A model generated the notes under the pieces. That model was not told where the DNA came from, did not search any database, and was given only the letters and a program-made list of their open reading frames with translations. Of a stretch of DNA of 64,000 nt, positions 22,652 to 53,208 are shown one piece after another. The position numbers and the translations under genes are program-made. The DNA comes from Defluviitaleaceae bacterium. GTDB taxonomy: Bacteria > Bacillota > Clostridia > Lachnospirales > WQUN01. The first letter of the stretch is position 1; each line of letters starts with the position of its first letter. The stretch is from contig WQSR01000001.1 of the NCBI GenBank assembly GCA_009787785.1, positions 12 through 64,011 on the forward strand, given 5' to 3'.

Positions 22652-22661
22652 GTGTGATATA

Positions 22662-24686: not shown

Positions 24687-24708
24687 AATAAAAAAAGTAG
24701 GGAAGAAA

Positions 24709-26139: not shown

Positions 26140-26151
26140 GGAGCACTGAGT

Positions 26152-26991: not shown

Positions 26992-26993
26992 AA

Positions 26994-29410: not shown

Positions 29411-29414
29411 GATT

Positions 29415-31055: not shown

Positions 31056-31067
31056 AGGGTGAAAGAA

Positions 31068-31913: not shown

Positions 31914-31950
31914 TATACGAATAAGAAATTATGATGGGAAGGAACAATTC

Positions 31951-32946: not shown

Positions 32947-32964
32947 ACATGGGGGAATTCTAGA

Positions 32965-33891: not shown

Positions 33892-33908
33892 GGAAGGGAT
33901 TGATTTAT

Positions 33909-35072: not shown

Positions 35073-35086
35073 AAAGGGGTAGGAAA

Positions 35087-36025: not shown

Positions 36026-36046
36026 TTACGGGAAGGGGCGGTTTCA

Positions 36047-37315
36047 TTGCACGCCATAAAAGCGGTAATCATGGCCGGAGGCTTGGGTACGCGACTGGCA
36101 TCATTAACACCAGACATCCCCAAGCCGATGATACCTGTCGGCGGGAAACCTGTGCTTTTACACCAAATTGAATGCTTAAAAAAAAATAATATAACGGATA
36201 TAACCTTCATAACCGGATACAGTGCGGATAAAATAGAAGCGTATTTTGGCGACGGCGGCACCTGGGGGGTTAATATTTCCTATATAGTTGAGGAAATTCC
36301 CTTGGGCACCGCCGGAGGATTATATTATTTAAAGGAATGTCTCCATGATACTTTTTTGCTTATTAATGGAGATATTCTATTTGACGTAGATTTTTTTCGC
36401 ATGTTCCGCTGGCACAAGAAAAAAGGAGCCGTTGCGACACTACTCACCCACCCCAATAACCACCCCTATGACAGTGCGCTGGTTATTACCGATGAACAGA
36501 GCCGGGTTACAAATTGGTTGCACAAGGAAGAGCCTCGGGAAGATTATAATAACAGGGTTAATGCAGGTATACACATGTTGGAACCGGAAGTGCTCGAAAA
36601 AATGAAAGCACCTGTTAAAACAGATTTAGACAGGGACATGCTCAAACCAATGGTAATAACAAAAGGCGTGTTTGCATATGACACACCGGAATATGTAAAG
36701 GATTTGGGTACACCGGATAGGTATGAGCGGGTGTGCCGGGATTTTGAAAATGGATTAGTAGAAGCAAAGAATCTTAGACACAAACAAAAAGCGGTTTTTT
36801 TAGACAGAGACGGAACTATTAATAAATATAGTGGATTTATTACCCATCCCGACCAAATCGAATTATTACCGGGCGTTTCTGAAGCCATTCGAAAATTAAA
36901 CAACTCTGCATATCTAACCATTGTGGTTACAAATCAACCTATAATAGCCCGTGGTGATTGCGACCATGATGAATTAAATGCTATACACAGACGCTTAGAA
37001 CGATTACTGGGAGAAGCGGGTGCGTACTTGGATGCGATTTTTTATTGTCCGCACCACCCGGACAAAGGATTTACCGGGGAACGCGCTGAATATAAAATCG
37101 AATGCCCCTGCCGCAAGCCCCAACCGGGAATGCTTCTACAAGCACATGAAAAGTTTAATATTGATTTATCTAAATCTTATATGGTTGGCGACCATGACCG
37201 GGATGTACAAGCGGGGTTGGCTGCCGGGTGCACATCCTTGAAAATAGATGCCCAAACACCCCGGCGAACTTCATTGCTGGAATGCGTTGATGCGATTTTG
37301 GAAGGAGTAGTATAA
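36047..37315 (+). CDS. HddC-GmhB fusion: heptose 1-phosphate guanylyltransferase and bisphosphate phosphatase
   Basis: This is a 422-aa two-domain protein. Residues 1-235 are a nucleotidyltransferase (IMAGGLGTRLASLTPDIPKP; LLINGDILFDVD; NRVNAGIHML) of the HddC type. Residues 245-422 are a HAD phosphatase of the GmhB type (VFLDRDGTINKYSGF; a zinc-loop-like CPHHPD...CPCRKPQPGML; GDHDRDVQAGLAAG). GmhB removes the 7-phosphate after HddA has acted, and HddC then forms GDP-heptose. The fusion puts these consecutive steps in one chain. It starts with TTG, preceded by GGAAGGGG at good spacing. The stop overlaps the gmhA start by one base. Confidence 0.88.
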   Translation: MHAIKAVIMAGGLGTRLASLTPDIPKPMIPVGGKPVLLHQIECLKKNNITDITFITGYSADKIEAYFGDGGTWGVNISYIVEEIPLGTAGGLYYLKECLHDTFLLINGDILFDVDFFRMFRWHKKKGAVATLLTHPNNHPYDSALVITDEQSRVTNWLHKEEPREDYNNRVNAGIHMLEPEVLEKMKAPVKTDLDRDMLKPMVITKGVFAYDTPEYVKDLGTPDRYERVCRDFENGLVEAKNLRHKQKAVFLDRDGTINKYSGFITHPDQIELLPGVSEAIRKLNNSAYLTIVVTNQPIIARGDCDHDELNAIHRRLERLLGEAGAYLDAIFYCPHHPDKGFTGERAEYKIECPCRKPQPGMLLQAHEKFNIDLSKSYMVGDHDRDVQAGLAAGCTSLKIDAQTPRRTSLLECVDAILEGVV

Positions 37316-37956
37316 TGAAAAGCAAGCATGTGCTGGATGAACTGTTTATATCTTATGCATGTCTTGAGGTATGTAGAGATGCTATTTTTCAAGCCTTCGG
37401 TATTCTTCGTGATGTATATGCCCAAAACGGAAAGGTTTTACTTTGCGGTAACGGTGGCAGCGCGGCCGACTGTGAACATATCGTTGGCGAATTAATGAAG
37501 GGCTTTAAATTAAAGCGACCGCTTCCCCATGATTCCCATGATAAGCTATCCTCCTTTGGCGGTGGAGAAATTGCCGATTATTTACAAGGTGCGCTTCCAG
37601 CTATTTCTTTAGTTAGCCACAACGCGCTTATTTCAGCCTTTACAAACGATGTCGGTGCTGATTATGTTTTCGCACAGCAAGTATATGGATATGGGAAAAA
37701 GGGTGACGCGCTTATTGCACTTTCAACCTCCGGGAATGCAACCAACGTAGTTAACGCTTGCCGTGTGGCCAAAGCATTGGAGATGAAGGTAATCGGCCTT
37801 TCGGGAAAAACTGGTGGGTTGTTGAAAAATCTTTGTGACACATGCATTTGTATACCCTCAGCTGACACAGCATCTATTCAAGAAAGGCATTTGCCGGTAT
37901 ATCACGCACTGTGTGCCGCGCTAGAGGTTGAGTTTTGGGGAAGCTTGGTGTGGTAA
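37315..37956 (+). CDS. gmhA: Sedoheptulose 7-phosphate isomerase GmhA
   Basis: This 213-aa SIS-fold isomerase has CGNGGSAADCEHIVGELMKGF (the phosphate-binding loop and conserved acidic side chains), LSTSGNATNVVNAC (second SIS loop) and the C-terminal IQERHLPVYHALC with the conserved Glu and His. The central loop (about residues 62-95) is longer than in the shortest homologues. It converts sedoheptulose 7-phosphate to D-glycero-D-manno-heptose 7-phosphate, the first step of the GDP-heptose route. ATG overlaps the preceding stop (ATGA-type). Confidence 0.92.
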   Translation: MKSKHVLDELFISYACLEVCRDAIFQAFGILRDVYAQNGKVLLCGNGGSAADCEHIVGELMKGFKLKRPLPHDSHDKLSSFGGGEIADYLQGALPAISLVSHNALISAFTNDVGADYVFAQQVYGYGKKGDALIALSTSGNATNVVNACRVAKALEMKVIGLSGKTGGLLKNLCDTCICIPSADTASIQERHLPVYHALCAALEVEFWGSLVW

Positions 37957-37965
37957 AGAAAAATA

Positions 37966-37996
37966 TTGACAACTTGCAGTTGATATTATTAATACT
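37966..37996 (+). promoter_or_regulatory. Candidate internal promoter
   Basis: A perfect TTGACA (37966-37971) is followed by AATACT (37991-37996) at 19 bases. The gap between gmhA and the sialyltransferase-like gene is one of the few longer gaps in the island, so an internal start is plausible. The -10 box and spacing are weak. Confidence 0.3.
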
Positions 37997-38043
37997 ATGT
38001 TAAAAGGCAAGGTGCAGAGAGCATTATAAGGAGATTGAGTGAG

Positions 38044-39231
38044 ATGCGTTTAATAACCAAAGCAATAAAATCCCTTCAAAAAAGAGGATTGCGTGAATCA
38101 ATTAAGAGATTTTTGTTTTATATGATGGTTAATAATAAAATGTTCGAAGATTGGATCGTTCAAAAGACTACACAGCAAGTAAATTTGACGCTTAATGATT
38201 GTATTAATCAACAAATCGATTTGATAGTTAATAAACTTACAAGAAATGACTTGTTTGAGACATACATGAGTCATCGAATCGAACCTCAAGCTAATGATCT
38301 TATATATTATGCGAAGCATAGAAGAATATTATTTTCATGGTATTATTATTGGCCAAATAATATGATATTACATGAATTGGAAAATTTGGCATTAAGTCAT
38401 TGGTCATGGAAATATGAATATAAGCAGTTATGGTTAATCTATTGTGCATGTTTATTGGACAAGGGGCGAGATGAGGAAGCCGAACGTGTGCTAAAAAGAT
38501 ACGAAAAATTATATAAAAAACATGAAATTGAACAATTGTTGCCTGTAGCTGACTTTGCAAGTCGCATAGGCATTTCCAATGATTCAATAGAAAAGTCAAG
38601 TTTGATATATAAAATGTTTCAAAAAAACAAAAAAACTAACCATATAGTAAGTTATATGAAAGATAAAAAAATTGCAGTGGTTAGTAATGGGGATGCCTGT
38701 CTCGGTAAAGGCTTAGGCAAAGAGATTGATGCAAATGATATAGTTGTCCGGTTTAATTGTTTTGATAACACAGCGCGGGGAAATGATTATGGCAATAAAA
38801 CATCGATTTGGGTAAAATGTTTATCCGTTCAGGACGAAGATAAAAATATTGAAAATATGGATTATGTTTTATACAGTTGGGACGTGAATCGCTTTTTTTT
38901 TAGTGAAAACCATCTTAATATATTGTATGATTATGCTTGTTCCCATCACGATAAGCTAACATACATCGACGGTGATTTAATTCGTTCATTGCTTGATGAT
39001 TCTCTACTTACTATTTCAACATCAGGATGTAACGTTTTTTACTATTTATATAAATTGTTTGGTAATTTTCACAATATTAACGCTTACGGATTTAGCTTCT
39101 TAACTTTAGACTATGATAATAGGAATCATTATTATGAAAACAAAAAAATCCCTGATGAACTTGCTAAATTTAATGATTTATACACAGAGTATAACTTCTT
39201 GAATAACCTATATTTTAATAATAAGGAATAA
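38044..39231 (+). CDS. GT29-like (sialyltransferase-motif) glycosyltransferase
   Basis: This is a 395-aa protein. The N-terminal half (residues 1-200) is charged and helical with no recognised domain. The C-terminal half carries the sialyl motifs otherwise best known from animal GT29 enzymes. Motif L is IAVVSNGDACLGKGLGKEID followed by NDIVVRFNCF. A motif S-like segment is TISTSGCNVFYYLYKLF...NAYGF, and a motif VS-like H-Y-Y-E is near the end. GT29 members transfer sialic acid or Kdo-type sugars from CMP donors; the donor genes lie downstream in this locus. AAGGAG favours the ATG at 38044 over the TTG at 38035. No transmembrane anchor is visible. Confidence 0.75.
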   Translation: MRLITKAIKSLQKRGLRESIKRFLFYMMVNNKMFEDWIVQKTTQQVNLTLNDCINQQIDLIVNKLTRNDLFETYMSHRIEPQANDLIYYAKHRRILFSWYYYWPNNMILHELENLALSHWSWKYEYKQLWLIYCACLLDKGRDEEAERVLKRYEKLYKKHEIEQLLPVADFASRIGISNDSIEKSSLIYKMFQKNKKTNHIVSYMKDKKIAVVSNGDACLGKGLGKEIDANDIVVRFNCFDNTARGNDYGNKTSIWVKCLSVQDEDKNIENMDYVLYSWDVNRFFFSENHLNILYDYACSHHDKLTYIDGDLIRSLLDDSLLTISTSGCNVFYYLYKLFGNFHNINAYGFSFLTLDYDNRNHYYENKKIPDELAKFNDLYTEYNFLNNLYFNNKE

Positions 39232-39367
39232 AGAAAATCCATGAAAATATGGTGCAATATCTATAAATAAAAAGAATTATTGTAAAGTAAATATATACAA
39301 ATTAGGGAGCCTTGCTTTTAAACCAACAAATGCTTCCTTAATTATATAAAAAAAGGATGAAGATAAA

Positions 39368-40180
39368 ATGAGAAATATTCTTGTATGCGGTAATGGCCCA
39401 TCGTGTACGAAAATTGATTTTACCCGAGTACCAGATGACGTAAAAATTATGAGAGCGACTTCTTTTTATTTCGAGGATAAATATTATGCGGGTAAGCGTG
39501 TGGATTATTACGTAGATTACATGAAGCGGATTGTGAACCAGTATTTTGTTGTTCGTACCGTTCACGATAAAGGCGAGTACGATATTGATTTAGCAAATAC
39601 ATGGTGGACGGTAATGCATGAAAAAAACCCACATTTCCCCGCTGCCAAATCATGTACGGATTATATACAGCAAAATATATACATTGCTGAGTTTAGATGC
39701 TTTTACGAATATTACTACGGACAATATTTACCTACGGGAATGCAAGCACTTGCATTGGCTTTTTGCTTGGGGTATGAAAATATTTATGTTGCCGGGTTTG
39801 ATATGTTTACAGACCCCAACAATATGCATCCTTTCCCTTACGGGGGAAAGGTAATGCAGGCCGCGCTTGAAAGCGTTCCTTCTACGGGCATTTATGATAC
39901 GAGCGAAGTGAAAAGCGAAAATAAGTCCGAATTTGAATATGTGCAAGTGCTTCGTCCAACCGATATGCAGGTAAAGTTTGTACAATTATTGCAAAAATGT
40001 TTTCCCAAAACAAAAATCATGAGTGTGGTTGAAAATAGTATTATGAATCAACATGTGACCGTTGCACCCATTATACATGATGTGCCTTGGTATGTGCCAC
40101 AAAAAAAGCCGACAGACAGAACAACCGATTGGTATCCCCTACCGGAAAGTATGCCTAGCAGAAGGAGAAACACACAATGA
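39368..40180 (+). CDS. GT42-like sialyltransferase (Cst-II type)
   Basis: This 270-aa protein begins ILVCGNGPSCTKIDFTRVPDD, then MRATSFYFEDKYYAGKRVD. This matches the conserved N-terminal CMP-binding pattern of Campylobacter Cst-II (AGNGPSLKEIDYSRLP... FYFEDKYYLGKK). TGMQALALAFCLGYENIYVAGFDMF corresponds to the second half of the CMP-binding fold. GT42 enzymes transfer sialic or related nonulosonic acids from CMP donors. The 136-base gap before it holds only AT-rich sequence with a weak hairpin (39304-39338). Its stop overlaps the next start by four bases. Confidence 0.85.
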   Translation: MRNILVCGNGPSCTKIDFTRVPDDVKIMRATSFYFEDKYYAGKRVDYYVDYMKRIVNQYFVVRTVHDKGEYDIDLANTWWTVMHEKNPHFPAAKSCTDYIQQNIYIAEFRCFYEYYYGQYLPTGMQALALAFCLGYENIYVAGFDMFTDPNNMHPFPYGGKVMQAALESVPSTGIYDTSEVKSENKSEFEYVQVLRPTDMQVKFVQLLQKCFPKTKIMSVVENSIMNQHVTVAPIIHDVPWYVPQKKPTDRTTDWYPLPESMPSRRRNTQ

Positions 40181-41220
40181 CGGTAAAATACGGCAAGCCT
40201 ATGGCGGGTGTTATGCCTTTTAAGGAATTGTTTTTTAATGAAAACGAAAAAATGCTAAAGTGGGGAGCGGCGGCCTTAGCACTGTATAAACAACAACCCA
40301 AAAGAACCGGTTGCAAGCTGTGTAGCACCCCCCTTCCGAAAGAATTTTATGTTAAAAGCCACGGGTTTGCATTTTATTTATGCGGTGAATGTGGGCATTT
40401 AAACGGTGAATTTGAAGAAACCGATGCCTATAACAGGAATTTTTTTGTGCTACCGGAAAGTAAAATAAGTGACATGTATCATGTGGAGTCGCAAATAAAA
40501 TTTGATGAAAGAACCGATAAGATTTATGTGCCCAAGGTGCAATTTATTATAGATTCATTGGCGGAAACAGGTGTTAACGTAGCAGCATTACAATATTTGG
40601 ATGTGGGTGCAGGTTCGGGTTATATGGTTGCGGCTATGCGAAAAAAAAGATTGGCTGCAAGCGGTGTAGAGGTAAGTGCGCCGCAGGTGGCACTGGCTAA
40701 CACAATGATACCCGCGCCGCAGGCGGTACGTGTTTGCGACCCTTCGGACATTGTACAAATCGCGTTAACAGAAGAAGCCGATGTACTTACTTTTATAGGG
40801 GTGCTTGAGCATATCCCTAATTTGCAGGCGGTATTACAAGCAATAACACAAAATAAAAGTGTTAAATATATGTTTTTTTCTGTGCCCTGTTTGGCATTTT
40901 CCAACGCTATTGAAGCAGTTTTTCCGCAGGTATTTGGCAGGCATATGGGGCACGGGCACACCCACGCGTTCAGCAATCGCTCATTGGAATGGATGTATAA
41001 AAACTATGGCTTTGAGCCTATTGCCGAATGGCGGTTTGGCGGAGATATTATGGATTTATACAGGTCAATAATGGTGTCGCTTAAAGAAAATACTGACGAA
41101 AATTTCATGCGAATGATAGCGGACTTTTTTCAAGAAAATGGTGATGCCCTACAGCTTATTATTGATAAAGCGGGTTTATCATCAGAAATACATGTATTAG
41201 TAAAAAATGCAGGAGCATAA
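40177..41220 (+). CDS. SAM-dependent methyltransferase with N-terminal zinc finger
   Basis: This is a 347-aa protein. A four-cysteine zinc knuckle CKLCSTPL...YLCGECGHLNG lies near residues 45-75. It is followed by a class I methyltransferase domain with YLDVGAGSGYMVAAM (motif I), ASGVEVSAPQ and LTFIGVLEHIPNLQAVL. A C-terminal HTHAFSNRSLEWMYKNYGF segment resembles motifs in sugar C- and O-methyltransferases. C-methyltransferases of deoxysugars also begin with such a zinc finger, so sugar methylation is likely, on a nonulosonic acid or deoxyheptose. It overlaps the GT42-like gene by four bases. Confidence 0.83.
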   Translation: MTVKYGKPMAGVMPFKELFFNENEKMLKWGAAALALYKQQPKRTGCKLCSTPLPKEFYVKSHGFAFYLCGECGHLNGEFEETDAYNRNFFVLPESKISDMYHVESQIKFDERTDKIYVPKVQFIIDSLAETGVNVAALQYLDVGAGSGYMVAAMRKKRLAASGVEVSAPQVALANTMIPAPQAVRVCDPSDIVQIALTEEADVLTFIGVLEHIPNLQAVLQAITQNKSVKYMFFSVPCLAFSNAIEAVFPQVFGRHMGHGHTHAFSNRSLEWMYKNYGFEPIAEWRFGGDIMDLYRSIMVSLKENTDENFMRMIADFFQENGDALQLIIDKAGLSSEIHVLVKNAGA

Positions 41221-41221
41221 A

Positions 41222-42853
41222 ATGAATATATTAGCCGTTATCCCTGCAAGGGGCAATTCAAAAGGTATACCCCGCAAAAATATGCGTTTGATGCACGGTA
41301 AGCCTTTATTGTTTTATTCCATTGCCACAGCAAAGAAGTGTAAATATATTACACAGGTGGCGGTTTCATCAGAGGATGCGGAAATATTGGAATATGCGCA
41401 GTCGATGGGTGTAACGGCACTGCCCAGAAGTATTGAGTTGTCGGGCGACGACATAACCCTAGACCCGGTTGTGTATGACGGGTTAGTTAAAATGGAAGCA
41501 CATATGCATTGTGCATATGATTATATAATTACTATGCAACCCACCTCACCTTTATTGTCTGCTTTAACATTGGAAAGTGCGATTGAATGCGCGGTTAGTA
41601 ATGCGTACGAAACGCTGATAAGCGCGACCAATAAGCCCTCTCTTTCGTGGCGAAGAGAGGGCGATTCTATTTTACCCAATTACCAAAAACGCCTGAACCG
41701 GCAACGGCTACCCGCGAACTATATAGAAACGGGGGCCTTTGTTGTTAGCAAGCGGCATGTGGTAACCAACGCTACACGCATTGGGAAGTATATAAATGTA
41801 TACGAGTTGCCCGGCCATGAGATAATTGATATAGATACTATGGAGGACTGGTTTGCTTGCGAGGCTTTGATGAACCGCAAGCGTATTGTATTCCGTGCCG
41901 ATGGGTCAAGAGAATTGGGTATGGGGCATATATACCGGTGCTTAACCTTGGCATATGAGCTTACGGGGCATGACATTTACTTTGTGTGTGACGAACGGTA
42001 CTTGCCGGGGATAGAAAAAATTGAAGGCAGCTACTTTTATTGTTATAAAATCAATAGTAGCCCCTTGTTTTACAGCCTGTTGGATGAGATAAAGCCGGAC
42101 ATAGTGGTAGTGGACATGCTTAACACCCATGAAGCCGACATGAAGGAGATTAAAACCCGTACGGGTCGGCTGGTTACGCTGGAGGATTTGGGGACGGGAA
42201 CCCATGTAGCCGACGCGGTTGTAAATGAATTGTATACAAATAAAGATAGTCGGCCCCATGTATATACCGGGCATAAATATGCTTGCTTGCGAGAAGAATT
42301 TTTAAGAAGAATGCCTAAGCCGTTTTCCCCGCAGGTTAAAAATATTTTTATTATGTTTGGTGGCAGTGACCCTTCAAACCTAACAAAAAAAGTATATGAA
42401 ATGGTATGCAATTACAATGCGCAGCTTGCGGGTATTTGTTTTAACTTTATCACGGGATTGGCGTATGATTATGAGGTAAACTGCATTGTTGATAACCCCG
42501 AAAAAAATATTTATGTGCATAACAACACACATAAGGTAAGCTGGTTTATGCAACAGGCGGATTTGGCAATATCATCTAAGGGTAGGGGAACGATGGAGCT
42601 AGCCTCCATGGCTGTGCCCGCTATTGTGCTGGCAGCAAATAATAAAGAAAAATCCCACGGGTTTGCTAAGCTGGAAAATGGGTTTGTTAACTTGGGTTCG
42701 GGTGCTGACATCTCTGAGCAAACCTTGTTTAATACATTAAAATGGTTAATTGATACCCCGCAAACGAGAAAAGAAATGCGTGAGTTGATGCTGGGCTTGG
42801 ATTTAACAAATGGGATAAACCGAGTGAAAAAAATTATCTTAGGTGATAAATAA
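41222..42853 (+). CDS. CMP-nonulosonate synthetase fused to PseG-like UDP-sugar hydrolase
   Basis: This is a 543-aa bifunctional protein. Residues 1-225 are a NeuA/PseF-type cytidylyltransferase (VIPARGNSKGIPRKN; TMQPTSPLLSALT; IIDIDTMEDW). Residues 230-543 are a PseG-like GT-B-fold hydrolase (GMGHIYRCLTLAY with the catalytic His; FIMFGGSDPSNLT; SSKGRGTMELASMAVPAI). PseG removes UDP to give the hexose used by the synthase encoded next. The fusion thus joins the hydrolase and activation steps on either side of the condensation. AGGAG before 41222 defines the start. PseB, PseC and PseH partners are not in this window. Confidence 0.88.
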   Translation: MNILAVIPARGNSKGIPRKNMRLMHGKPLLFYSIATAKKCKYITQVAVSSEDAEILEYAQSMGVTALPRSIELSGDDITLDPVVYDGLVKMEAHMHCAYDYIITMQPTSPLLSALTLESAIECAVSNAYETLISATNKPSLSWRREGDSILPNYQKRLNRQRLPANYIETGAFVVSKRHVVTNATRIGKYINVYELPGHEIIDIDTMEDWFACEALMNRKRIVFRADGSRELGMGHIYRCLTLAYELTGHDIYFVCDERYLPGIEKIEGSYFYCYKINSSPLFYSLLDEIKPDIVVVDMLNTHEADMKEIKTRTGRLVTLEDLGTGTHVADAVVNELYTNKDSRPHVYTGHKYACLREEFLRRMPKPFSPQVKNIFIMFGGSDPSNLTKKVYEMVCNYNAQLAGICFNFITGLAYDYEVNCIVDNPEKNIYVHNNTHKVSWFMQQADLAISSKGRGTMELASMAVPAIVLAANNKEKSHGFAKLENGFVNLGSGADISEQTLFNTLKWLIDTPQTRKEMRELMLGLDLTNGINRVKKIILGDK

Positions 42854-42854
42854 T

Positions 42855-43925
42855 ATGCAAAGTATAATTATTGAAAGAGCAAAAAAAGGCACGTTTACAC
42901 TTATTGCCGAAATTGGTGTAAATTATTACGATATTGCCGCGCAAAGGGGCATAACGCCCATTGCGGCCGCTTGCTTAATGGTTGACCATGCCTTGGCAAG
43001 CGGGGCACATGCGGTAAAATTTCAAACCTATAAGGCGCAAACCCTTGCCGCGAAAGCGTCTCCCTCGTATTGGGATTTAAGCGAGGAACCTACCTGTTCT
43101 CAGTTTGAGCTGTTTAAAAAGTTTGATAGCTTTAACGAGCAAGAATATGCGCAAATAGCAAAGCATTGTATGGACATGGGTATAGAGTTTTTATCCACCC
43201 CTTTTGACTTTGAAAGTGCGGATTATTTGGATAAATATATGGCTGTATATAAAATATCTTCCTCTGATTTAACCAATATCCCTTTTATTAAACATATCGC
43301 GGGTAAGGGAAAGCCCATACTCTTATCTGTAGGCGCATCCAACGTGGATGAGATTGATGCTACGGTGCGCACAATTAGGAAGATAAACCAACAGCCCCTT
43401 GTGTTATTGCACTGTGTTTTAGAATATCCGACCCCTGTGACCCACGTTAACTTAAACCGCATCGTTTCTTTAAAAGAGCGATACGATGGTGCATTTATCG
43501 GTTATTCAGACCATTCCGTACCTGACGCAACCAAGGATGTAATTAAAGCGGCTTACCTTTTGGGTGCGCGTGTTATTGAAAAGCACTTTACATTGGATAA
43601 AACACTGAAGGGGAATGACCACTACCACGCTATGGATGTAGCCGATGCAAAGGACATACTTAACAAAATAAGCCATATTGAAGCCCTTTGCGGAAACGGA
43701 GATTTGGTTGTGCTTGAAACAGAGGCAGCTGCGCGCCGCAATGCGCGTCGTTCTGTAGTAAGCACAAGAGAAATTTCTGCCGGGCAAGTTATAACGACAG
43801 AAATGCTAACCTGCAAGCGGCCCGGCACGGGCATACCCCCCGGTGAGCAAGACAGGTTGGTAGGCATGAAAGCAAAAATAAACATAAATGAGGACACCCT
43901 TTTGCAATGGGATATGTTTAATTAA
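42855..43925 (+). CDS. NeuB-family nonulosonic acid synthase
   Basis: This 356-aa protein has an N-terminal TIM barrel (FTLIAEIGVNY, AVKFQTYKAQTL, FLSTPFDFESADYL, YKISSSDLTNIPFI, IGYSDHS, VIEKHFTLDK) and a C-terminal SAF/antifreeze-like domain from about residue 295 (RRSVVSTREISAGQVIT). It condenses phosphoenolpyruvate with a 6-carbon diacetamido or N-acetyl sugar to a nine-carbon acid. The neighbouring PseG-like domain suggests pseudaminic acid, but legionaminic or another acid cannot be excluded. AGGTG before the ATG at 42855 supports the start. Confidence 0.9.
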   Translation: MQSIIIERAKKGTFTLIAEIGVNYYDIAAQRGITPIAAACLMVDHALASGAHAVKFQTYKAQTLAAKASPSYWDLSEEPTCSQFELFKKFDSFNEQEYAQIAKHCMDMGIEFLSTPFDFESADYLDKYMAVYKISSSDLTNIPFIKHIAGKGKPILLSVGASNVDEIDATVRTIRKINQQPLVLLHCVLEYPTPVTHVNLNRIVSLKERYDGAFIGYSDHSVPDATKDVIKAAYLLGARVIEKHFTLDKTLKGNDHYHAMDVADAKDILNKISHIEALCGNGDLVVLETEAAARRNARRSVVSTREISAGQVITTEMLTCKRPGTGIPPGEQDRLVGMKAKININEDTLLQWDMFN

Positions 43926-43943
43926 ACATTTGGAGAGATTTAT

Positions 43944-44951
43944 ATGGCTAAAAGTGTTATGGACAGAGGCTCAATTAAACGTTATAGCAATGAGGCAGTT
44001 TTCGATGAATTGAGAAAAATATACGGCGGTGCCTATGATAAATACCGTAACGATTGGGAAACGGCGGGTAAATTGCAGGTGAAGGAGGAACGTCCAAGCC
44101 ATTTGTTGATGGAATTAACCTCGCATTGTAATATGTTGTGTAAAATGTGCTACCGCAATTACGTACCTGAACGTGTTGAAGGGTATATGAAAATGGAGAT
44201 TGTTGACAAGATAGTGTGCGAAGCAAAAGCCTTAAAGGTACCCAGCATATTTTTGGGGGCAGGGTCTGAATGTTTGTTACACCCTGAAATTACATTAATT
44301 TTAAAGAAATTTGCTGAAGTTGGGGCTATGGATTACTGGATGATATCAAATGGCTCATTACTTACGCACGAAATAAGTGAGGCAATTATTGACGCGCAGC
44401 TCACGGTATTTTCTGTATCATTGGATGCCGCTACGCCGGAAACCTATGAAAAAATACGGGGAAACGGGGGCAAATACAACTTGGAAACGGTTACACGCAA
44501 TATTATGGAGTTAATAAACCTACGGGAGCGTAAAAACAAAATGTTCCCAAGGATTCGCCTTTCTTACGTAGTGATGGATGAAAACGAGCATGAAGTAGAA
44601 CGATTTAAAAAACAATGGGATGAATATGTAGATATGTTTGATTTTCAAGCATTAACGGATTACGCTTTATATGAGAAAATTATTGAAGATGTCAGTATTG
44701 AAGAAGATTATCACTGTCCGGATCCGTTTTCAAGAATTGTAATAAATTATAAGGGAGATATGCACCCTTGTGTAAGTAATTTTTATCGGCCGGAGGAGCC
44801 CGTAAATATACAAGATATGTCGATAAAGGAATATTGGTATTCATCGGCGATAGAGGCATTACGTGTAGCCGTTAAAAATAGAGCGTTTCCGAAAAGTTGT
44901 ACTCGGTGTGTGGCAGCACGGCTGGCAATGGAGAACACTAAAAAGTGGTGA
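43944..44951 (+). CDS. Radical SAM protein with SPASM-like C-terminus
   Basis: This 335-aa protein has the 4Fe-4S motif TSHCNMLCKMCYRNYV near residue 60, LGAGSECLLHP and FSVSLDAATPETYEKIRG as the radical SAM barrel blocks. The C-terminal cysteines (YHCPDPFSR, MHPCVSNF, KSCTRCVAA) form a SPASM/twitch-like auxiliary cluster site. Enzymes with this layout carry out dehydrogenations or epimerisations, including on aminosugars (as in BtrN), or modify peptides. Its place between NeuB and FkbH suggests sugar chemistry. Confidence 0.8.
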   Translation: MAKSVMDRGSIKRYSNEAVFDELRKIYGGAYDKYRNDWETAGKLQVKEERPSHLLMELTSHCNMLCKMCYRNYVPERVEGYMKMEIVDKIVCEAKALKVPSIFLGAGSECLLHPEITLILKKFAEVGAMDYWMISNGSLLTHEISEAIIDAQLTVFSVSLDAATPETYEKIRGNGGKYNLETVTRNIMELINLRERKNKMFPRIRLSYVVMDENEHEVERFKKQWDEYVDMFDFQALTDYALYEKIIEDVSIEEDYHCPDPFSRIVINYKGDMHPCVSNFYRPEEPVNIQDMSIKEYWYSSAIEALRVAVKNRAFPKSCTRCVAARLAMENTKKW

Positions 44952-44957
44952 TTATAA

Positions 44958-46679
44958 ATGGTAAATGAAATCATTTCTTACCCTTTTGACAGTATTGAGA
45001 TTATTAAAAAGAAAAAAGCGATAAAGCGACAATTACGGCGGCAAGACGCCCTGCTGGAGGTGCGTATTGCCATAATGAGCGGCTCAACCGTGGGGGTTGT
45101 TAGTGATGTGCTTGAGCTTTTCTTATTGTATTTTGGCATAAAGCCAATTTTTTTTATAGGCAATTATAACCGCTATTATGAGGAGCTACTGTTTGAAAAC
45201 CGGGAGCTGTTTGCTTTTTCGCCTGATATAATTTATATACATACGTCGATACGTAATGTAACGGATACCTTTGAAATTGAAAAATTTAAGGTGATGTGGG
45301 ATAAAATTAGAGAAGTTTACGCATGTACGATAATACAAAATAATTTTGAATTGCCCGGTTATTATGAAGCTGCCCTATGTAAAAAAATAAATGAATATAA
45401 TGTGTTTATTGCTGATTATGCCTTGAAAAACAATAATTTTTATGTTAATGATATTCAGTTTTTGTCTGCTTGGTATGGTTTAGGCGCATGGTTGGACGCA
45501 CAGGATTATATGCTGTATAAATACGCGCTAAGTATAAAAGCGATTCCTCATTTATCCTATCAAATTGCAAAAATTATAAAGTCAATGTATGGTAAAAACC
45601 AAAAATGCTTGGTGCTTGATTTGGATGACACCCTATGGGGTGGAATAGTTGGGGAAATTGGCACGGAGAAAATAGAAATAGGAAGCGATACTGCCCTTGG
45701 CGAGGGGTATAAAGCGTTCCAAAAGTATGTAAAGACGTTGCATGAACAAGGAATTATCTTGGCTGTTTGCTCTAAAAATGAAGAAAAAATTACAAGGGAT
45801 GCGTTTAATAATCCCAACATGGTTTTATCCCTTGAAGATATTACCGTTTTTTGCGCAAATTGGGATAATAAGGCGGATAATATAAAATATATTGCCGCGC
45901 AATTAAACATACTCCCAGAAAGCATCGTATTTATTGACGACAACCCCGCAGAGCGTGAGCTGATACGGCAGGCCATACCGCAGGTAAAGGTGCCGGAGGT
46001 AAATAATGTAGTCGATTTTATACGGCACATTGAGGAGGCCGGATATTTTTATACTACGAGGGTAACCGAGGAGGATAAAAAACGCAATCAATATTATGCA
46101 AATGAAGTAAAGAGAGCGAATGAGGAGGAGCTGTTTGCGGACTATAGTGCCTATTTGCGTTCTTTGTGTATGACAAGTGAAATAGAGGCGTTTTCATGGG
46201 CAAGCATAGAAAGAATTGTGCAGTTAATAAATAAAACCAATCAGTTTAACTTTACAACTCGGCGTTATAGTATCCATGAAATAAATGATGTAATGATAAA
46301 TAGCCAATATATTACCTTGTATGGTACCCTTGATGATAAATTCGGAAGTAATGGTATTGTGTCGGCAATCATTGGTAAAGCCCAAGCGGATGTTTTGCAC
46401 ATTACGCTGTGGGTGATGAGTTGTCGCGTTTTTAAGCGTGATATGGAGTGTGCTATGCTTGACCGATTGGTTAAAATGGCGCGGGATGCCGGAATAAGCA
46501 AAATAGTAGGCTGTTATTACCCAAGTGCCAAGAATGGAGTTGTACGCGAATTATATAAGGACATGGGTTTTAATAAAACCAGCGAGGATGAAAGCGGCAA
46601 TACGGTGTGGGCGTTGCATACAAGCAGCTATGTTAATAAAAATAAAGTAATAAGTGTTACGCGAGGAAGGACGGTATAA
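44958..46679 (+). CDS. FkbH-like HAD-IIIC protein
   Basis: This is a 573-aa protein. It has an N-terminal SGNH-like region (IAIMSGSTVGVVSDVLELF), a central HAD-IIIC domain CLVLDLDDTLWGGIVGE with the two nucleophile-loop Asp residues (about residues 215-225) and VFIDDNPAERELI. A C-terminal GNAT-like domain (VMSCRVFKRDMECAMLDRL... YYPSAKNGVVRELYKDMGF) follows. FkbH-type enzymes dephosphorylate 1,3-bisphosphoglycerate and load glyceryl onto an acyl carrier protein; an ACP gene lies 1.7 kb downstream in the same operon. The overall layout is complete. Its product is likely a C3 acyl-ACP used to decorate a sugar (inference). Confidence 0.86.
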   Translation: MVNEIISYPFDSIEIIKKKKAIKRQLRRQDALLEVRIAIMSGSTVGVVSDVLELFLLYFGIKPIFFIGNYNRYYEELLFENRELFAFSPDIIYIHTSIRNVTDTFEIEKFKVMWDKIREVYACTIIQNNFELPGYYEAALCKKINEYNVFIADYALKNNNFYVNDIQFLSAWYGLGAWLDAQDYMLYKYALSIKAIPHLSYQIAKIIKSMYGKNQKCLVLDLDDTLWGGIVGEIGTEKIEIGSDTALGEGYKAFQKYVKTLHEQGIILAVCSKNEEKITRDAFNNPNMVLSLEDITVFCANWDNKADNIKYIAAQLNILPESIVFIDDNPAERELIRQAIPQVKVPEVNNVVDFIRHIEEAGYFYTTRVTEEDKKRNQYYANEVKRANEEELFADYSAYLRSLCMTSEIEAFSWASIERIVQLINKTNQFNFTTRRYSIHEINDVMINSQYITLYGTLDDKFGSNGIVSAIIGKAQADVLHITLWVMSCRVFKRDMECAMLDRLVKMARDAGISKIVGCYYPSAKNGVVRELYKDMGFNKTSEDESGNTVWALHTSSYVNKNKVISVTRGRTV

Positions 46680-46680
46680 A

Positions 46681-47523
46681 ATGGATAATGAGGCGACTGC
46701 GCTAAAAAAAATAAGAAAAAATATTTTCCTAACCGCCTGTGCGGGTGGGGTTGGGCATTTGGCATCTGCTTTTTCGATTGTTGAAATTATTTACGCATTA
46801 TATATAAAAGGTGTGCTTTGCCATGACAGTAAAAACCCAACATGGGAGGGCAGAGACCGATTTATATTAAGCAAGGGGCATGGTTGCTTGGCACTGTATA
46901 ATGTGCTTAGTCTTGGCGGATATTTTGAGGAAGATGAGCTGTGGACGTTTTGCCGCCCGGGGTCACGTATGGGGGGCGAGCCAAATGTTTTGGAACTGCC
47001 CGGGGTTGAGGCTTCTACCGGTTCGCTGGGGCATGGCTTGTCTATTGGCGTGGGTATGGCGTTGGCCGCAAGGGCAGATAACATGGACAATAAAATATAT
47101 GTGCTGGTTGGTGACGGTGAATGCCAAGAGGGCTCCATATGGGAAGCCGTTATGGCGGGAATGGCATTTGGGTTGGACAACCTTTATGTGATTCTTGACG
47201 AAAATAAATTGCAAAAGATGGGCTTTGTCAGTGATATTATGCGAATCAATTGTTGGGAGGAAAGGTTTAAGGCATTTGGGTGGCAGGTAAAAAAAGCAAA
47301 TGGACACAATGTGGCGGATATATATAAGCAATTAACGGGGGAATGGACGGCCGGTGTGCCGCGGGTGTTAATTGCCCAAACAACAAAGGGTAAGGGCGTT
47401 TCGATAATGGAAAACGCACCGGGCTGGCATTGGAAAATGCCAAACAAGCGAGAACTTAAAATAGTAATGCAGGAATTAGGTATAACCGAGGAGGAGCTTG
47501 AAAAATGCAAAAGGCATATATAA
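46681..47523 (+). CDS. Transketolase, N-terminal (TPP-binding) subunit, copy 2
   Basis: This 280-aa protein has ILSKGHGCLALYNVL, GSLGHGLSIGVGMALA, and the TPP motif VGDGECQEGSIWEAV with the paired Asn in ILDENKLQ. All catalytic residues of the family are present. It differs clearly from copy 1 at 26152 and has the more canonical His in SKGHG and GSLGHG, where copy 1 has SKSHA and GSLGCG. It overlaps its partner gene by 19 bases. Placement between the FkbH and ACP genes suggests a role in making an acyl or ketol unit, not only pentose-phosphate chemistry. Confidence 0.88.
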   Translation: MDNEATALKKIRKNIFLTACAGGVGHLASAFSIVEIIYALYIKGVLCHDSKNPTWEGRDRFILSKGHGCLALYNVLSLGGYFEEDELWTFCRPGSRMGGEPNVLELPGVEASTGSLGHGLSIGVGMALAARADNMDNKIYVLVGDGECQEGSIWEAVMAGMAFGLDNLYVILDENKLQKMGFVSDIMRINCWEERFKAFGWQVKKANGHNVADIYKQLTGEWTAGVPRVLIAQTTKGKGVSIMENAPGWHWKMPNKRELKIVMQELGITEEELEKCKRHI

Positions 47524-48422
47524 CCGCACTGTATGGGCTGATGCTTGGCGATAAACGGGTTTGCTCTTTATTGTCAGACAGTGGAACGGAGTATGACGCG
47601 CTTATTTTTCGTGAGTTTCCTAACCGGTGCTTTAACTTTGGTATTGCCGAGGAAAACAAGGTGGCGGCAGCCTCCGGGTTGGCTGCGTTTGGAAAAATCC
47701 CCTTTGTGTATACTACGGGGGCATTTCTTGCGTATCGGGCATATGAATTTATAAGAAATGATATATGCATACAAAAGAGTAATGTAAAGCTTACCGGAAT
47801 GGGGACCGGAATGGGGTGGAGCACATTAGGGCCCTCTCACCACACTACAGAAGATATAAGCGCGTTGCGCGCATTACCCAATTTAACGCTGTTTATTCCG
47901 GCAAGCCCGATGGAGCTGCAGGCTTGTGTTAAGGCGGCGTATGAAATAGAGGGGCCTGTATATATTCGTATGTGTATGCACGATAATGACGAGATATATG
48001 ACGCGGGCTATACATTTGTACCGGGCAAAAATATAGTATTGGCAAATGGAAGCGAAATTGTTGTTTTTTCAACGGGGAGTATTGTATCGGAAGGGCTTGC
48101 GGCGACAAAGCTTCTTGAGGAAAAGGGTGTTTCTGTAAGGTTTGTTAACGTTCATACACTTAAACCGCTGGACAAAGAGAACATTATTGCCGTTGCAAAG
48201 GATGTACGGCATATTTTTACGCTTGAGGAGCATACGGTTTTAGGCGGATTGGGCGGGGCCGTTGCAGAGGTGCTTGCAGAGGCGGGGCTGGGTGTGCCGG
48301 TAAAGCGAATTGGCTTGAACGATTGTTTTGCCGCGGGGTATGGTACGCAGGCAGAGGTTAAAAAAATGAATGGACTGGATAGTGCGCACATATTTAATAA
48401 AATTTGGGAGGCCATAAAATGA
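47505..48422 (+). CDS. Transketolase, C-terminal subunit, copy 2
   Basis: This 305-aa partner of the preceding gene has FNFGIAEENKVAAASGLAA (catalytic Glu), GMGWSTLGPSHHTTEDISAL (phosphate-side His pair) and FTLEEHTVLGGLGGAVAE. It has no lipoyl or fused carrier domain. The stop overlaps the ACP start (ATGA), so the ACP is translationally coupled to this transketolase half. That is the strongest hint that the two act together. Confidence 0.88.
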   Translation: MQKAYITALYGLMLGDKRVCSLLSDSGTEYDALIFREFPNRCFNFGIAEENKVAAASGLAAFGKIPFVYTTGAFLAYRAYEFIRNDICIQKSNVKLTGMGTGMGWSTLGPSHHTTEDISALRALPNLTLFIPASPMELQACVKAAYEIEGPVYIRMCMHDNDEIYDAGYTFVPGKNIVLANGSEIVVFSTGSIVSEGLAATKLLEEKGVSVRFVNVHTLKPLDKENIIAVAKDVRHIFTLEEHTVLGGLGGAVAEVLAEAGLGVPVKRIGLNDCFAAGYGTQAEVKKMNGLDSAHIFNKIWEAIK

Positions 48423-48664
48423 CAAGAGAAATTGTATTGGAAAGAATGACACAAATATTCCGTGACATATTTGACGACGAAAGCATTAATGTGGTTGACG
48501 CTACTCATGCCGACGACATTGAGGATTGGGATAGCTTGGAGCATATTAACCTGGTGTTGGCGGTTGAAGAAGAATTTGACATTAAATTTACCCTGCCTGA
48601 GGTTACCGATGCGAAAAATGTGGGCGATATCGTAGACATTATCGTACAACGCGGTACGTTGTAA
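48419..48664 (+). CDS. Acyl carrier protein
   Basis: This 81-aa acidic four-helix protein has the 4'-phosphopantetheine attachment serine at S39 in IEDWDSLEHINLVLAVEEEF. GGGAGG precedes the ATG at 48419, favouring it over an upstream TTG. It overlaps the transketolase stop and the MaoC start. It is a dedicated carrier within the glycan operon, not the housekeeping fatty-acid ACP, judging by context. Confidence 0.9.
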   Translation: MTREIVLERMTQIFRDIFDDESINVVDATHADDIEDWDSLEHINLVLAVEEEFDIKFTLPEVTDAKNVGDIVDIIVQRGTL

Positions 48665-49095
48665 TGAAGGAATATACATTTGAGGAGATAACGATAGGGC
48701 AAGAGGAAAGCTTTTGCGTTGAAATAACGAAAGAAAAAATGGATGCGTTCCGTGTAATTACCGGGGATGAAAACCCCCTTCACCATGATGCGGTTTATGC
48801 GGCATCTCAAGGATTTGGGGGCGGGGTTGTCTCTTATGGTTTGCTTACCGCCTCTTTTTTATCCACGTTGGCGGGTATGTATTTGCCGGGTAGGTATAGT
48901 CTTATCCATAGCGTTGAGGTGAAATTTCCGAAGGCTGTGTGTGTTATGGATAAAACAACCCTTGTTGTACGCGGAAAGGTTGCCGAAAAGCAGGATATAT
49001 TCAACGTACTTATGATAAAGGTTGCCATTGAAAATGAAGATGGTGAAAAGGTTTGCAGGGGTACAATGAAGGTAGGGGTAAGGGATGAAAAATAA
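48664..49095 (+). CDS. MaoC-like hot-dog dehydratase/hydratase
   Basis: This 143-aa protein has the hydratase motif TGDENPLHHD (about residues 36-45), with the catalytic Asp and His spaced as in R-specific enoyl hydratases, and GFGGGVVSYGLLTASFLS. It would act on an acyl group held by the neighbouring ACP, adding or removing water. It overlaps the ACP stop by one base and the SDR start by 11 bases. Confidence 0.85.
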   Translation: MKEYTFEEITIGQEESFCVEITKEKMDAFRVITGDENPLHHDAVYAASQGFGGGVVSYGLLTASFLSTLAGMYLPGRYSLIHSVEVKFPKAVCVMDKTTLVVRGKVAEKQDIFNVLMIKVAIENEDGEKVCRGTMKVGVRDEK

Positions 49096-49819
49096 AAAGG
49101 TGCTTATGGTAACGGGGGCATCTTCAGATGTAGGCATGGGGCTGATACGAAAAATACAAAGTAATTACACCCACATTATTGCCCATTATAACCGTAGTAA
49201 AGACAGGGTACAGGCACTGGAACATGAATTGGAGGGCAGGGTTGTACCCATGCAGTGCGACTTTGCTGATAAAGACGCAGTTGACGCGCTGGCACAGCAA
49301 ATTATTGACCTTGATATAGTGCCAACGCATTTTGTGCATATGCCCAATAGCCCATTAAACAACGCAAAATTTAATAAAATGCAATGGCATGATTTTGAAG
49401 ATGAAATGTATACTTCGTTTCGCTCGGCTGTTATATTGCTTCAATCGTTTGTTCCTGCAATGGTTAAACAAAAAAACGGGAAGGTTGTTTTTATGCTGAG
49501 TTATTGCTTGGTAAACACGCCGCAAATAAAATTTGCGGTGCAATATACCTGTGCTAAATACGCGCTTTTGGGGCTTATGCGGGGTTTGTCCACGGAGTAT
49601 GCCCATAAGGGTATCACCGTAAATGGGGTATCCCCATCCATGATTGAAACACGGTATTTGAAGGACGTACATGCGTTAATTGTACAAAAAAATGCCGCCG
49701 AGAGCCCTTTGAAAAGAAACTTGTATGTTGATGATGTAATAGGCGCGTTTGAATTTTTTTTATCCGAAGGTGCGAATTGTATAACCGGCCAAAATATTGC
49801 CGTGACGGGTGGAAAATAA
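49085..49819 (+). CDS. Short-chain dehydrogenase/reductase (FabG-like)
   Basis: This 244-aa classical SDR has the cofactor loop VTGASSDVGMG, the VHMPNS strand (replacing NNAG), the catalytic S in MLSYCLVN, and YTCAK as the Tyr-x-x-x-Lys pair. The C-terminus has the CITGQNIAVTGGK end typical of FabG. It would reduce a 3-ketoacyl-ACP or oxidise the matching alcohol. Tight overlap with the MaoC gene supports joint action on the acyl group. Confidence 0.86.
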   Translation: MKNKKVLMVTGASSDVGMGLIRKIQSNYTHIIAHYNRSKDRVQALEHELEGRVVPMQCDFADKDAVDALAQQIIDLDIVPTHFVHMPNSPLNNAKFNKMQWHDFEDEMYTSFRSAVILLQSFVPAMVKQKNGKVVFMLSYCLVNTPQIKFAVQYTCAKYALLGLMRGLSTEYAHKGITVNGVSPSMIETRYLKDVHALIVQKNAAESPLKRNLYVDDVIGAFEFFLSEGANCITGQNIAVTGGK

Positions 49820-49822
49820 GCT

Positions 49823-51895
49823 ATGTCATATATAAGCTTTCTGCAAATAGCCCATGTGTTGGGAATAAAAAAAGGTGATAATATTTTGGTTTCTTCGGAT
49901 ATTACCCGGTTGGCGTATTTATGCTGTTCACATGGCGAAAAATTTGACACAAACCTGTTTATTGACAGCCTAAAAGAAGCGGTGGGTGAAGGAGGCAGCC
50001 TTGTTTTTCCAACCTATAATTGGGATTTTTGTAAAGGAATTGCGTTTGATTACCGTGCTTCCAAGTCAGAGGTAGGTTCCCTTTCAGATGCGGCATTAAA
50101 AAGAAATGATTTTACGCGTACAAGGCATCCTATTTATTCGTATGCTGTTTGGGGGAGGGATAGGGAAGCACTGTATTCCCTTGCTAACAGGAGTGCATGG
50201 GGTGAGGGTAGCCCATTTGATTATTTTTACCACAACGGGTACAAAAATTTAGCTATTGATGTTGCATATGATAAATTTGCCACCTTTATCCATTATTGTG
50301 AGGAAAAGGTAGGTACTACCTATAGATATATGAAGGATTTTACCGGGGAATACATAAACGAACGCGGTGTAAGTGAAGGGCGCACCTATTCCATGTATGT
50401 TCGCCCACAGTATTATAACGTCACAACGCAAATATATAAAATGGATGAGATATGGCAAAAAAATGGTGTTGTTAGGGAATTTGAAATAAACGGGTTGCCG
50501 TTTGTATTAGTTGATATGAAAAAGGCATGTGATTTAACAGAGGCGGATATAAAATACAACCACAGTAGAAACATTGTAGCTTACCCGGGGTATGGAATGC
50601 CTACTAATACAGGAATAAGCATTCATATGCTGGCTGTTCGTCTGTTCCCTATCTGCCGTAGTTTAACGGGTAATGGTGTACGAAAAACATTAAATGTTTT
50701 ACAAGAAATAGTACCGCAAATGCAGATAAATGAAGTGCCCAGCGGCACGCAGGTTTTTGATTGGACGGTGCCTAATGAATGGAATATAAAGGATGCCTAC
50801 ATTAAAGACGAAAACGGAAGCACGATATTGTCATTTGCCCATAACAATCTTCATGTTGTGGGTTATTCCGCACCTATTGATAAAATGGTAACGCGGAATG
50901 AGCTTATGGAAATGGTGTATACACAGCCTGACCAGCCGGATGTGATTCCTTATGTGACATCCTATTATAAAGAGCGGTCCGGCTTTTGCATGACCGAACA
51001 CCAACGAGAAACGCTTAACGGGGCACGGTATCATGTTTATATTGACAGCGAATTAAAAAAGGGGTCGCTTACGTACGGGGAAATAGTTATCCCTGGAGAA
51101 AGTGAACAAGAAATACTTTTATCTTCTTATATTTGCCACCCCTCTATGGCGAATAATGAATTGTCCGGCCCTTGTGTTGCGATTCATCTTGCAAAGTGGT
51201 TGCTGGAGCAGCCACGCCGTTATTCTTATCGAATTATTTTTATACCCGAGACTATTGGTCCAATTACGTATTTAAGCCGCAATTTAGAAGCTATGAAAAA
51301 GCGGGTAATTGCCGGATTTAATTTGACCTGTGTGGGCGATAATCATGCGTATTCCTATATTGCTTCCCGTTATGGCGATACATTGGCTGACCGTGTCGCC
51401 AAAAATATTTTACGTTTCCACGCGCCCGGGTATAGGTCCTATTCCTACTTGCAACGCGGGTCGGACGAACGGCAGTATAACGCGCCGGGGGTTGACTTGC
51501 CGGTGTGTGTTATCTGCCGCAGTAAGTTTGGTGAATTTCCCGAATATCATACTTCTGACGATAATTTAGAGTTTATTTCCCCGGAAGGGCTGGGGGGCGC
51601 GTTTGATGTTTACCAAAGATGTATTATAGCGTTGGAGAATAATTATAAATATAGAATAAAATGCTTGGGCGAGCCGCAACTGGGGAAGCGCGGATTGTAT
51701 CCAACGGTTAGCCAAAAAGGGCAATATGATGAAGTGAAAAGTATGATGGATTTTATCGCCTATGCGGATGGTTTAAATGATTTAATATCAATTAGTAATA
51801 TAATAAATGTGTCGATAAATGATTTGATTCCAATTATAAAAAAATTATGTGATGTAGAATTGCTGGAAATCGGAGGAAATAAAGAACATGCGTGA
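49823..51895 (+). CDS. AAC(3)-like acyltransferase fused to DUF4910 aminopeptidase-like domain
   Basis: This is a 690-aa protein. Residues 1-260 are an AAC(3)-family N-acyltransferase-like domain (GEGGSLVFPTYNWDF, ASKSEVGSLSDAALKR, RHPIYSYAVWG, FATFIHYCEEKVG). Residues 265-690 are a DUF4910/M28-like zinc hydrolase domain (LFPICRSLTGNGVRKTL; SSYICHPSMANNELSG; FIPETIGPI; SEFPEYHTSDDN-like GEFPEYHTSDDN). A short winged-helix end follows. The first domain can attach an acyl group to an amino sugar and may take it from the operon's ACP. The second might remove or rearrange such amides. Both roles are inference from families and context. Confidence 0.82.
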   Translation: MSYISFLQIAHVLGIKKGDNILVSSDITRLAYLCCSHGEKFDTNLFIDSLKEAVGEGGSLVFPTYNWDFCKGIAFDYRASKSEVGSLSDAALKRNDFTRTRHPIYSYAVWGRDREALYSLANRSAWGEGSPFDYFYHNGYKNLAIDVAYDKFATFIHYCEEKVGTTYRYMKDFTGEYINERGVSEGRTYSMYVRPQYYNVTTQIYKMDEIWQKNGVVREFEINGLPFVLVDMKKACDLTEADIKYNHSRNIVAYPGYGMPTNTGISIHMLAVRLFPICRSLTGNGVRKTLNVLQEIVPQMQINEVPSGTQVFDWTVPNEWNIKDAYIKDENGSTILSFAHNNLHVVGYSAPIDKMVTRNELMEMVYTQPDQPDVIPYVTSYYKERSGFCMTEHQRETLNGARYHVYIDSELKKGSLTYGEIVIPGESEQEILLSSYICHPSMANNELSGPCVAIHLAKWLLEQPRRYSYRIIFIPETIGPITYLSRNLEAMKKRVIAGFNLTCVGDNHAYSYIASRYGDTLADRVAKNILRFHAPGYRSYSYLQRGSDERQYNAPGVDLPVCVICRSKFGEFPEYHTSDDNLEFISPEGLGGAFDVYQRCIIALENNYKYRIKCLGEPQLGKRGLYPTVSQKGQYDEVKSMMDFIAYADGLNDLISISNIINVSINDLIPIIKKLCDVELLEIGGNKEHA

Positions 51896-52866
51896 AAATC
51901 CTTTTAACCCTATATATAAAAAACTAAACACAGGCTTGGCTAAAACAATTTCACATGAAATGCCATTGCTTATTGATATAGAAGTAACCAATGCGTGCAA
52001 TTTTAATTGTCTTTTTTGCTATACAGGAACGAAAGCGCATAAGCGGCGTACAGGTTTTATGAGCAAGGAGTTGTTTAAAAAAATTATAAATGAGACTATG
52101 CCCTATAAAATACCATTGCGTTTTAGTCGGTGGGGGGAGCCTACAATGCACAAGGACATATTGTATTTCTTGAGCGAAACAAAGCGGGGGGGGGGCGTTG
52201 TGTCATTTGAATACAAATGGTTCTATGGTGGATGATGAATTTTGTGATGCGATATTGCAGATGAAGCTCGACAGTTTAAAGTTTTCATTTCAAGGAACCG
52301 ACGAAAAAACATATAGTGAAATGAGGTATGGGGAAAGTTTTAACAAATTAGTGGATTCGGTAAAAAGAATTTATCGAATGCGTGGCACTCTTTTATACCC
52401 TTATATACATGTAGCAACGACAATCACTTATGAGACGCCGGAAATGGTTGCGGCATTTAAGGATATGATAAGCCCTTATTGCGATTATGTTTCGGTTGGG
52501 GCAACAAATTTAACGCATATATCGTCAGAACAGATTAAATTACCTGTTGAAGCAAAAGTGTTACTTGATGAGTTGAAGTCTATTGCATCAATAAAAAAAG
52601 AGTATCGGGTTTGTAATGAAGTGTATGATAAACTATCACTAAATTGGGACGGTACGGTAAGTGCCTGTTGTGGCGATTATGACAATTATATGATAGTAGG
52701 GAATATAAATGAAACCTCAATTCAAGAAATTTGGAAAAATAGTAGTGAATTAAAACGTTATCGTTCTTTGTTAACTGATTTTAAACATGAAATGTTACCG
52801 TTGTGTAAGAATTGCTACGATACGATGAATTTAAAAGCATCAAGTGTAAAAAACAAAGGAAAATGA
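51888..52866 (+). pseudogene. Radical SAM/SPASM protein, out of frame at a 10-G run
   Basis: The first frame (51888-52235) has the radical SAM motif TNACNFNCLFCYTG and then FSRWGEPTMHKDIL. The second frame (from about 52198 to 52866) continues with LNTNGSMVDDEF, the SFQGTDEKTYSEMRYG block and SPASM-like cysteines (CNEVYDKL, ACCGDYD, LCKNCYD). Deleting one G from the run at 52186-52195 joins them as ...KRGG-ALCHLNTNGS..., exactly the conserved strand expected after the cysteine motif. The whole protein would be about 325 aa. It is therefore either switched off in this copy by slipped-strand mispairing or affected by a homopolymer sequencing error. The start overlaps the preceding gene by eight bases. 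Confidence 0.85.
52186..52195 (+). repeat. Homopolymer run of 10 G at the frameshift
   Basis: Ten consecutive G bases occur inside the radical SAM coding region. Nine (or twelve) would restore a full-length reading frame, and ten does not. Confidence 0.9.
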
Positions 52867-52872
52867 GTTATT

Positions 52873-53154
52873 ATGAAAGCAATTATTTTTGGAGCCGGTG
52901 AAGGCGGAAAGCCTTTATTTGCTGAAATGAAAAGAAATGGTGAACCATATGAAATAGTGGGGTTTATTGACAACAGGCTAAAGGGCACAGAGTTGTATGA
53001 TTTACCTGTTATTTCGCCTGAACAAATACAATCTTAACGGTTGCTTTTTGCAAATTCTATTCCTCTAATTATACGCGAAACCGAAATGCAGGATATTGAT
53101 ACAGAAGATGATTGGGCGATTGCTGAAATGAAATATAACCGGCAAAGGGTATGA
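52873..53154 (+). pseudogene. Remnant joining a NeuD-like N-terminus and a NeuA-like C-terminus
   Basis: Bases 52873-53037 encode 54 aa beginning MKAIIFGAGEGGKPLF and IVGFIDNR, the start of a PglD/NeuD-type or related Rossmann domain, then stop. The same frame resumes directly (53038-53154) for 38 codons with PLIIRETEMQDIDTEDDWAIAE. This is the typical C-terminal motif of acylneuraminate cytidylyltransferases. Two unrelated gene ends have thus been fused by deletion and then interrupted. Both parent families belong to nonulosonic acid biosynthesis. The identification of each short fragment is by motif only. Confidence 0.6.
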
Positions 53155-53208
53155 CGGCCCGTTCCCGTTTTATTCGGCTATACGATTCTGGAATTTGGTT
53201 CACCTTGT

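Follow-up and report, generated by a model that had tools for sequence, protein, structure and literature searches.

Poly-G tracts in described systems

Switching of glycan genes by poly-G tracts is regarded as classic in Campylobacter, according to work cited in PMC13317340. The contingency genes cited there include maf4 and Cj1295, which carry poly-G tracts and act on the flagellar glycans of Campylobacter jejuni. Similar behaviour has been described in the gut commensal Bifidobacterium breve, where G-tracts in bbr_0113 and bbr_1889 switch sortase-dependent pili and the variation has been measured by deep sequencing (PMC9187656). A survey of 99 prokaryote genomes indicates that poly-G/C runs are generally under-represented (PMC2831843). 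We searched the open-licence literature for poly-G phase variation in glycan loci of Clostridia, and found no description of it.

Here, we describe a radical SAM gene that is divided at a run of ten Gs in a Defluviitaleaceae bacterium. The stretch of DNA that was analysed, referred to below as the window, comprises 64,000 nucleotides of contig WQSR01000001.1. The resemblance to the C. jejuni genes (PMC13317340) is twofold: a run of about 9–10 Gs lies inside a glycan-modification gene and its length sets the reading frame, and the context is that of a nonulosonic-acid glycan, represented in the window by NeuB and PseF/PseG-like genes in the same genomic island. The differences are also considerable. 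Variation has been demonstrated in C. jejuni, whereas the window case is known from the sequence of one assembly. In addition, the window genome belongs to an unrelated lineage, has MutS and MutL, shows no excess of tracts, and carries its tract in a radical SAM gene. The locus resembles that of B. breve in that two open reading frames of a surface-structure gene are joined or split by G-tract length, but the B. breve pilin gene is split near its signal peptide, whereas the glycan enzyme of the window is split in the middle of the gene (PMC9187656).

A radical SAM gene divided at ten Gs

The two reading frames and the tract are arranged as follows:

51888..52235, + strand: ORF1, the N-terminal radical SAM half, with CNFNCLFC (4Fe-4S/AdoMet site) and a GEP motif; PF04055 profile positions 1–71
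52186..52195, + strand: G10 tract, the sole lesion separating the radical SAM halves; the frame stays open with nine Gs or another multiple of three
52198..52866, + strand: ORF2, the remaining radical SAM barrel (TNGS strand) and SPASM domain; PF04055 profile positions 80–159, PF13186 SPASM E 5e-15

Read directly from the letters, the tract is exactly ten Gs long. ORF1 encodes 115 amino acids and runs out of frame past the tract, the part of its translation that leads up to the stop reading LSETKRGGGVVSFEYKWFYGG and its C-terminus KRGGGVVSFEYKWFYGG. ORF2 encodes 222 amino acids in a different frame. When the tract is set to nine Gs, ORF1 and ORF2 form a single protein of 325 amino acids, which reads ETKRGGALCHLNTNGS across the junction. 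The spacing between the GEP and TNG motifs is then 26 residues, a value shared by 11 of the 20 homologues measured and the commonest among them, and nine Gs is therefore the natural tract length. Joining the frames by a four-letter reading (GGGG=G, then GGCG=A) was rejected, because that reading took effect at other sites as well. The first-pass annotation had proposed that the two frames make one radical SAM/SPASM protein once a single G is removed, and the length of the joined product, its PF04055 and PF13186 matches and its motif spacing all bear this out.

No second lesion was found in the gene, and all of the expected cysteines and motifs are retained. The joined protein has the CxxxCxxC motif, the barrel, and a SPASM domain with its cysteines, as is typical of radical SAM/SPASM enzymes. 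The AdoMet-cluster cysteines (37, 41, and 44) are encoded by ORF1 and the SPASM cysteines by ORF2, so neither half should function alone, and any product from an internal start within ORF2 would be without the AdoMet cluster. The G10 homopolymer lies inside the reading frame and is long enough to slip, and run length alone determines whether the product is full-length or truncated.

The tract-bearing gene occurs as one copy in the assembly. No orthologue was detected among 38 genomes of the same family or among 392 genomes of the order, apart from a C-terminal fragment in genome G026, which is also the closest relative sequence (46% identity). No orthologue carrying the tract was thus present in the 392 genomes, and no relative keeps the same two-frame arrangement. 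A search of wider genome contigs returned only distant Omnitrophota matches, and the same locus was not found in viral contigs.

The surrounding surface-glycan island

The radical SAM gene is the final intact-looking gene of an island of about 32 kb, which has a GC content of 39%; most of the other parts of the genome that were sampled have 52–58%. The features of the island, besides the divided gene, are:

20906..53040, + strand: low-GC (39%) surface-glycan island
29832..29842, + strand: G11 tract, in frame, in a B12-binding radical SAM gene (29415–31055)
31207..31215, + strand: C9 tract, in frame, in a methyltransferase gene (31059–31913)
34127..34134, + strand: G8 tract, in frame, in a DegT-type sugar aminotransferase-like gene (33900–35072; named from its translation)
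52872..53152, + strand: deletion remnant directly downstream of the radical SAM gene (from translation; family names by reading)

Export and transfer functions are represented by ABC-2 export genes, glycosyltransferases, and CST-I and GT29 sialyltransferase-like genes, and nonulosonic-acid functions by NeuB and a fused PseF/PseG-like gene. Further genes encode FkbH, transketolase halves, an ACP, a MaoC-like dehydratase, an SDR, and an AAC(3)/DUF4910 fusion. Within the downstream remnant, a NeuD/CoA-binding-like N-terminus is followed by a stop and then, in the same frame, by a NeuA/PseF cytidylyltransferase-like C-terminus, which indicates that DNA has been lost from the 3' end of the island. 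A sequence of about 30 bases, CGGCCCGTTCCCGTTTTATTCGGCTATACG, lies at that end (53152–53183) and is repeated at several sites in the genome, some of them close to where contigs C7 and C58 begin.

Long tracts within the genome

Across the genome as a whole, long G runs are not in excess when run counts are compared with geometric decay: 51 G/C runs are exactly 8 long and 5 are at least 10 long, against about 4 expected. The genome has 21 distinct runs of at least 9, seven of which are at or near contig ends. Of the 14 interior runs, 11 are in frame in coding genes, two are at gene junctions, and only the G10 of the window splits a gene. The in-frame runs, which are 9–11 long, lie in many housekeeping genes, including recN, dxs, secD, secA, and trmD (named by reading translations). 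An apparent second split gene at C58:12258 was rejected, as the tract reads at what appears to be the fliP/fliQ junction, outside any single gene. A 7.7-kb stretch at the end of contig C34 (L069) is present again, with 100% identity, in contig C70 (L074), which ends exactly at the G10 run of trmD. In this genome the assembly repeatedly breaks at G runs.

The island, which makes up 1.2% of the genome, holds 3 of the 14 interior runs of at least 9 (binomial probability about 7e-4, computed with 15 runs). Markov models predict only 0.17–0.28 such runs in the island, while protein-preserving codon shuffles predict 0.21, with 4 of 5000 shuffles reaching three. This clustering is suggestive, no more, because it was spotted after the fact. 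Tracts appear over-represented in the island and in the relative G006 considered below, but not across the source genome. Loss of mismatch repair was ruled out as a cause of long tracts, since MutS and MutL are both present and open. Frequent slippage, if it occurs, would consequently not stem from missing mismatch repair.

Long tracts in related bacteria

Runs of at least ten Gs gave 177 matches in 24 genomes of the same family. In 14 genomes from other families of the order they gave 13, and a single genome accounted for 7 of these. Most of those other families have almost no such tracts. Many genomes have poly-G runs at contig ends; these probably reflect where sequencing or assembly stopped, and they are left out of the evidence. 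Within the family, tracts of 10–19 occur in glycan and surface-protein genes, several of which are split at the tract.

In G006, run lengths are clearly two-peaked: 3 runs are exactly 8 long, 21 are at least 10 long, and 16 are at least 12 long, 9 of these 16 being interior. Genes split at a tract in G006 encode an FkbM methyltransferase (G13), an AlgX-like acyltransferase (G15, following the membrane anchor), a pyruvyl-transferase-like protein (G19), and a methyltransferase (C14). A GDP-sugar epimerase gene and methyltransferase genes carry further tracts that keep the frame. The glycan genes split at G13–G19 lie at loci L157, L169, and L164. The split glycan genes of G006 make a stronger case for phase variation than the radical SAM gene of the window. 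Splits of transketolase and epimerase genes in the same genome (L168 and the first tract of L169) were not counted as OFF, as the tract falls in the in-frame tail of the gene.

Other relatives show varied arrangements. G015 has radical SAM, FkbM, and TylF genes with G12–G14 tracts in frame. In G005, two RCC1-repeat/dockerin surface paralogues (L141 and L150) have a tract in the signal-peptide region, one being C10 and out of frame and the other G12 and in frame. G002, a member of the same genus, has a surface-type protein that is out of frame at C12 just past its signal peptide. The B. breve pilus switch is matched more closely by these G005 and G002 surface-protein cases than by the window gene. 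In G008, a G14 tract lies in frame in the gene for release factor 1 (L178:3002–3015), where GGGGG stands in place of the usual PGTGG. Release factor 1 is essential and its tract is very prone to slip, so the long tracts of the family are not confined to genes able to be OFF. We give about even credence to the idea that the family broadly uses poly-G contingency loci, with 10–19 Gs in enzymes that modify glycans and after the signal peptides of large surface proteins. These would form a Campylobacter-like phasome that arose independently despite intact mismatch repair, with the window gene as a short-tract member.

A candidate switch and its alternatives

On a modest leaning, we consider the radical SAM gene to be a contingency gene of the slipped-strand type, here in the OFF state, and this is the most likely reading because similar surface genes of relatives are split by G runs of greater length. 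Slipped-strand changes in the G run would set expression of the enzyme. A tract of nine Gs, or of another multiple of three, would give the complete enzyme. With ten, the frame would be lost after the GEP motif and translation would stop about 15 codons on, leaving the AdoMet-cluster cysteines and the SPASM domain on separate products, from which an active enzyme would not be expected. The reversible change in length, the glycan role, and a selective benefit (for example, escape from phage or immune attack) are all inferred. In support are the single lesion exactly at G10, the right spacing at nine Gs, and the retention of motifs; the cluster of tracts in the island and the tract-split glycan and surface genes of same-family relatives also appear to favour a switch. 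Against it stand the lack of a genome-wide excess of G runs, the other coding runs, which are in frame and often in housekeeping genes, the intact MutS and MutL, the adjoining deletion remnant, the absence of a tract-bearing orthologue among the 392 genomes of the order, and the G14 in release factor 1 of G008. Consequently, the phase-variable switch proposed in the first-pass annotation holds up in part. Its points that the tract splits the gene, that the setting is a surface-glycan one, and that the state is OFF stand and gain from the split genes of relatives, while the genome's own other long coding runs, all in frame, and the adjoining remnant weaken the case for switching.

The chief alternative is that the frameshift is fixed: a single slip at a mutational hot spot would have left a dead or dying gene at the eroding 3' end of the island, and no switch would have been selected. 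We regard this as possible, if rather unlikely. It accords with the NeuD-like/NeuA-like remnant next door, with the closest relative being itself a C-terminal fragment, and with the absence of tract excess and the in-frame state of the other tracts in this genome. However, ORF2 remains open over its 222 codons with motifs complete and without a second lesion, and the island tract cluster and the glycan genes split at tracts in relatives also count against it. An error of assembly or consensus, in which the gene is intact with nine Gs in reality, is improbable. Short-read homopolymer lengths are error-prone, those of G tracts especially (PMC9187656), and this assembly has poly-G at several of its contig ends. 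Nevertheless, the other coding runs of 9–11 are in frame in 11 of 11 cases, recN, trmD, secD, and secA among them, which implies that tract lengths have generally been called rightly. Least probable is that the gene is expressed despite G10, by transcriptional slippage or ribosomal frameshifting that yields a steady low amount of enzyme. Long homopolymers can make RNA polymerase slip, and both halves of the gene are intact, but no relative keeps the same frame arrangement and nothing at this locus shows slippage or frameshifting.

If the gene is indeed a contingency gene, a poorly known family would vary its surface sugars and proteins by the slippery-G trick of Campylobacter. This would bear on escape from phages and immunity, and on strain-level variation in metagenomes.

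A predicted role for the enzyme

The best solved-structure match of the joined protein is to BtrN-type radical SAM enzymes (PDB 4m7s and 4m7t, E 9e-13). The match spans the cluster-binding region and the C-terminal auxiliary-cluster region, although similarity to BtrN is low. No NCBIfam cut-off for BtrN or any other named radical SAM equivalog was reached, the best score being 114 bits against 380. The most likely role of the enzyme is to modify a sugar in the surface glycan predicted for the island. On the NeuB side of the island, the cluster at 43944–49819 contains FkbH, the split transketolase, ACP, MaoC, and SDR genes, and appears equipped to make an acyl group, bound to ACP, for the glycan.
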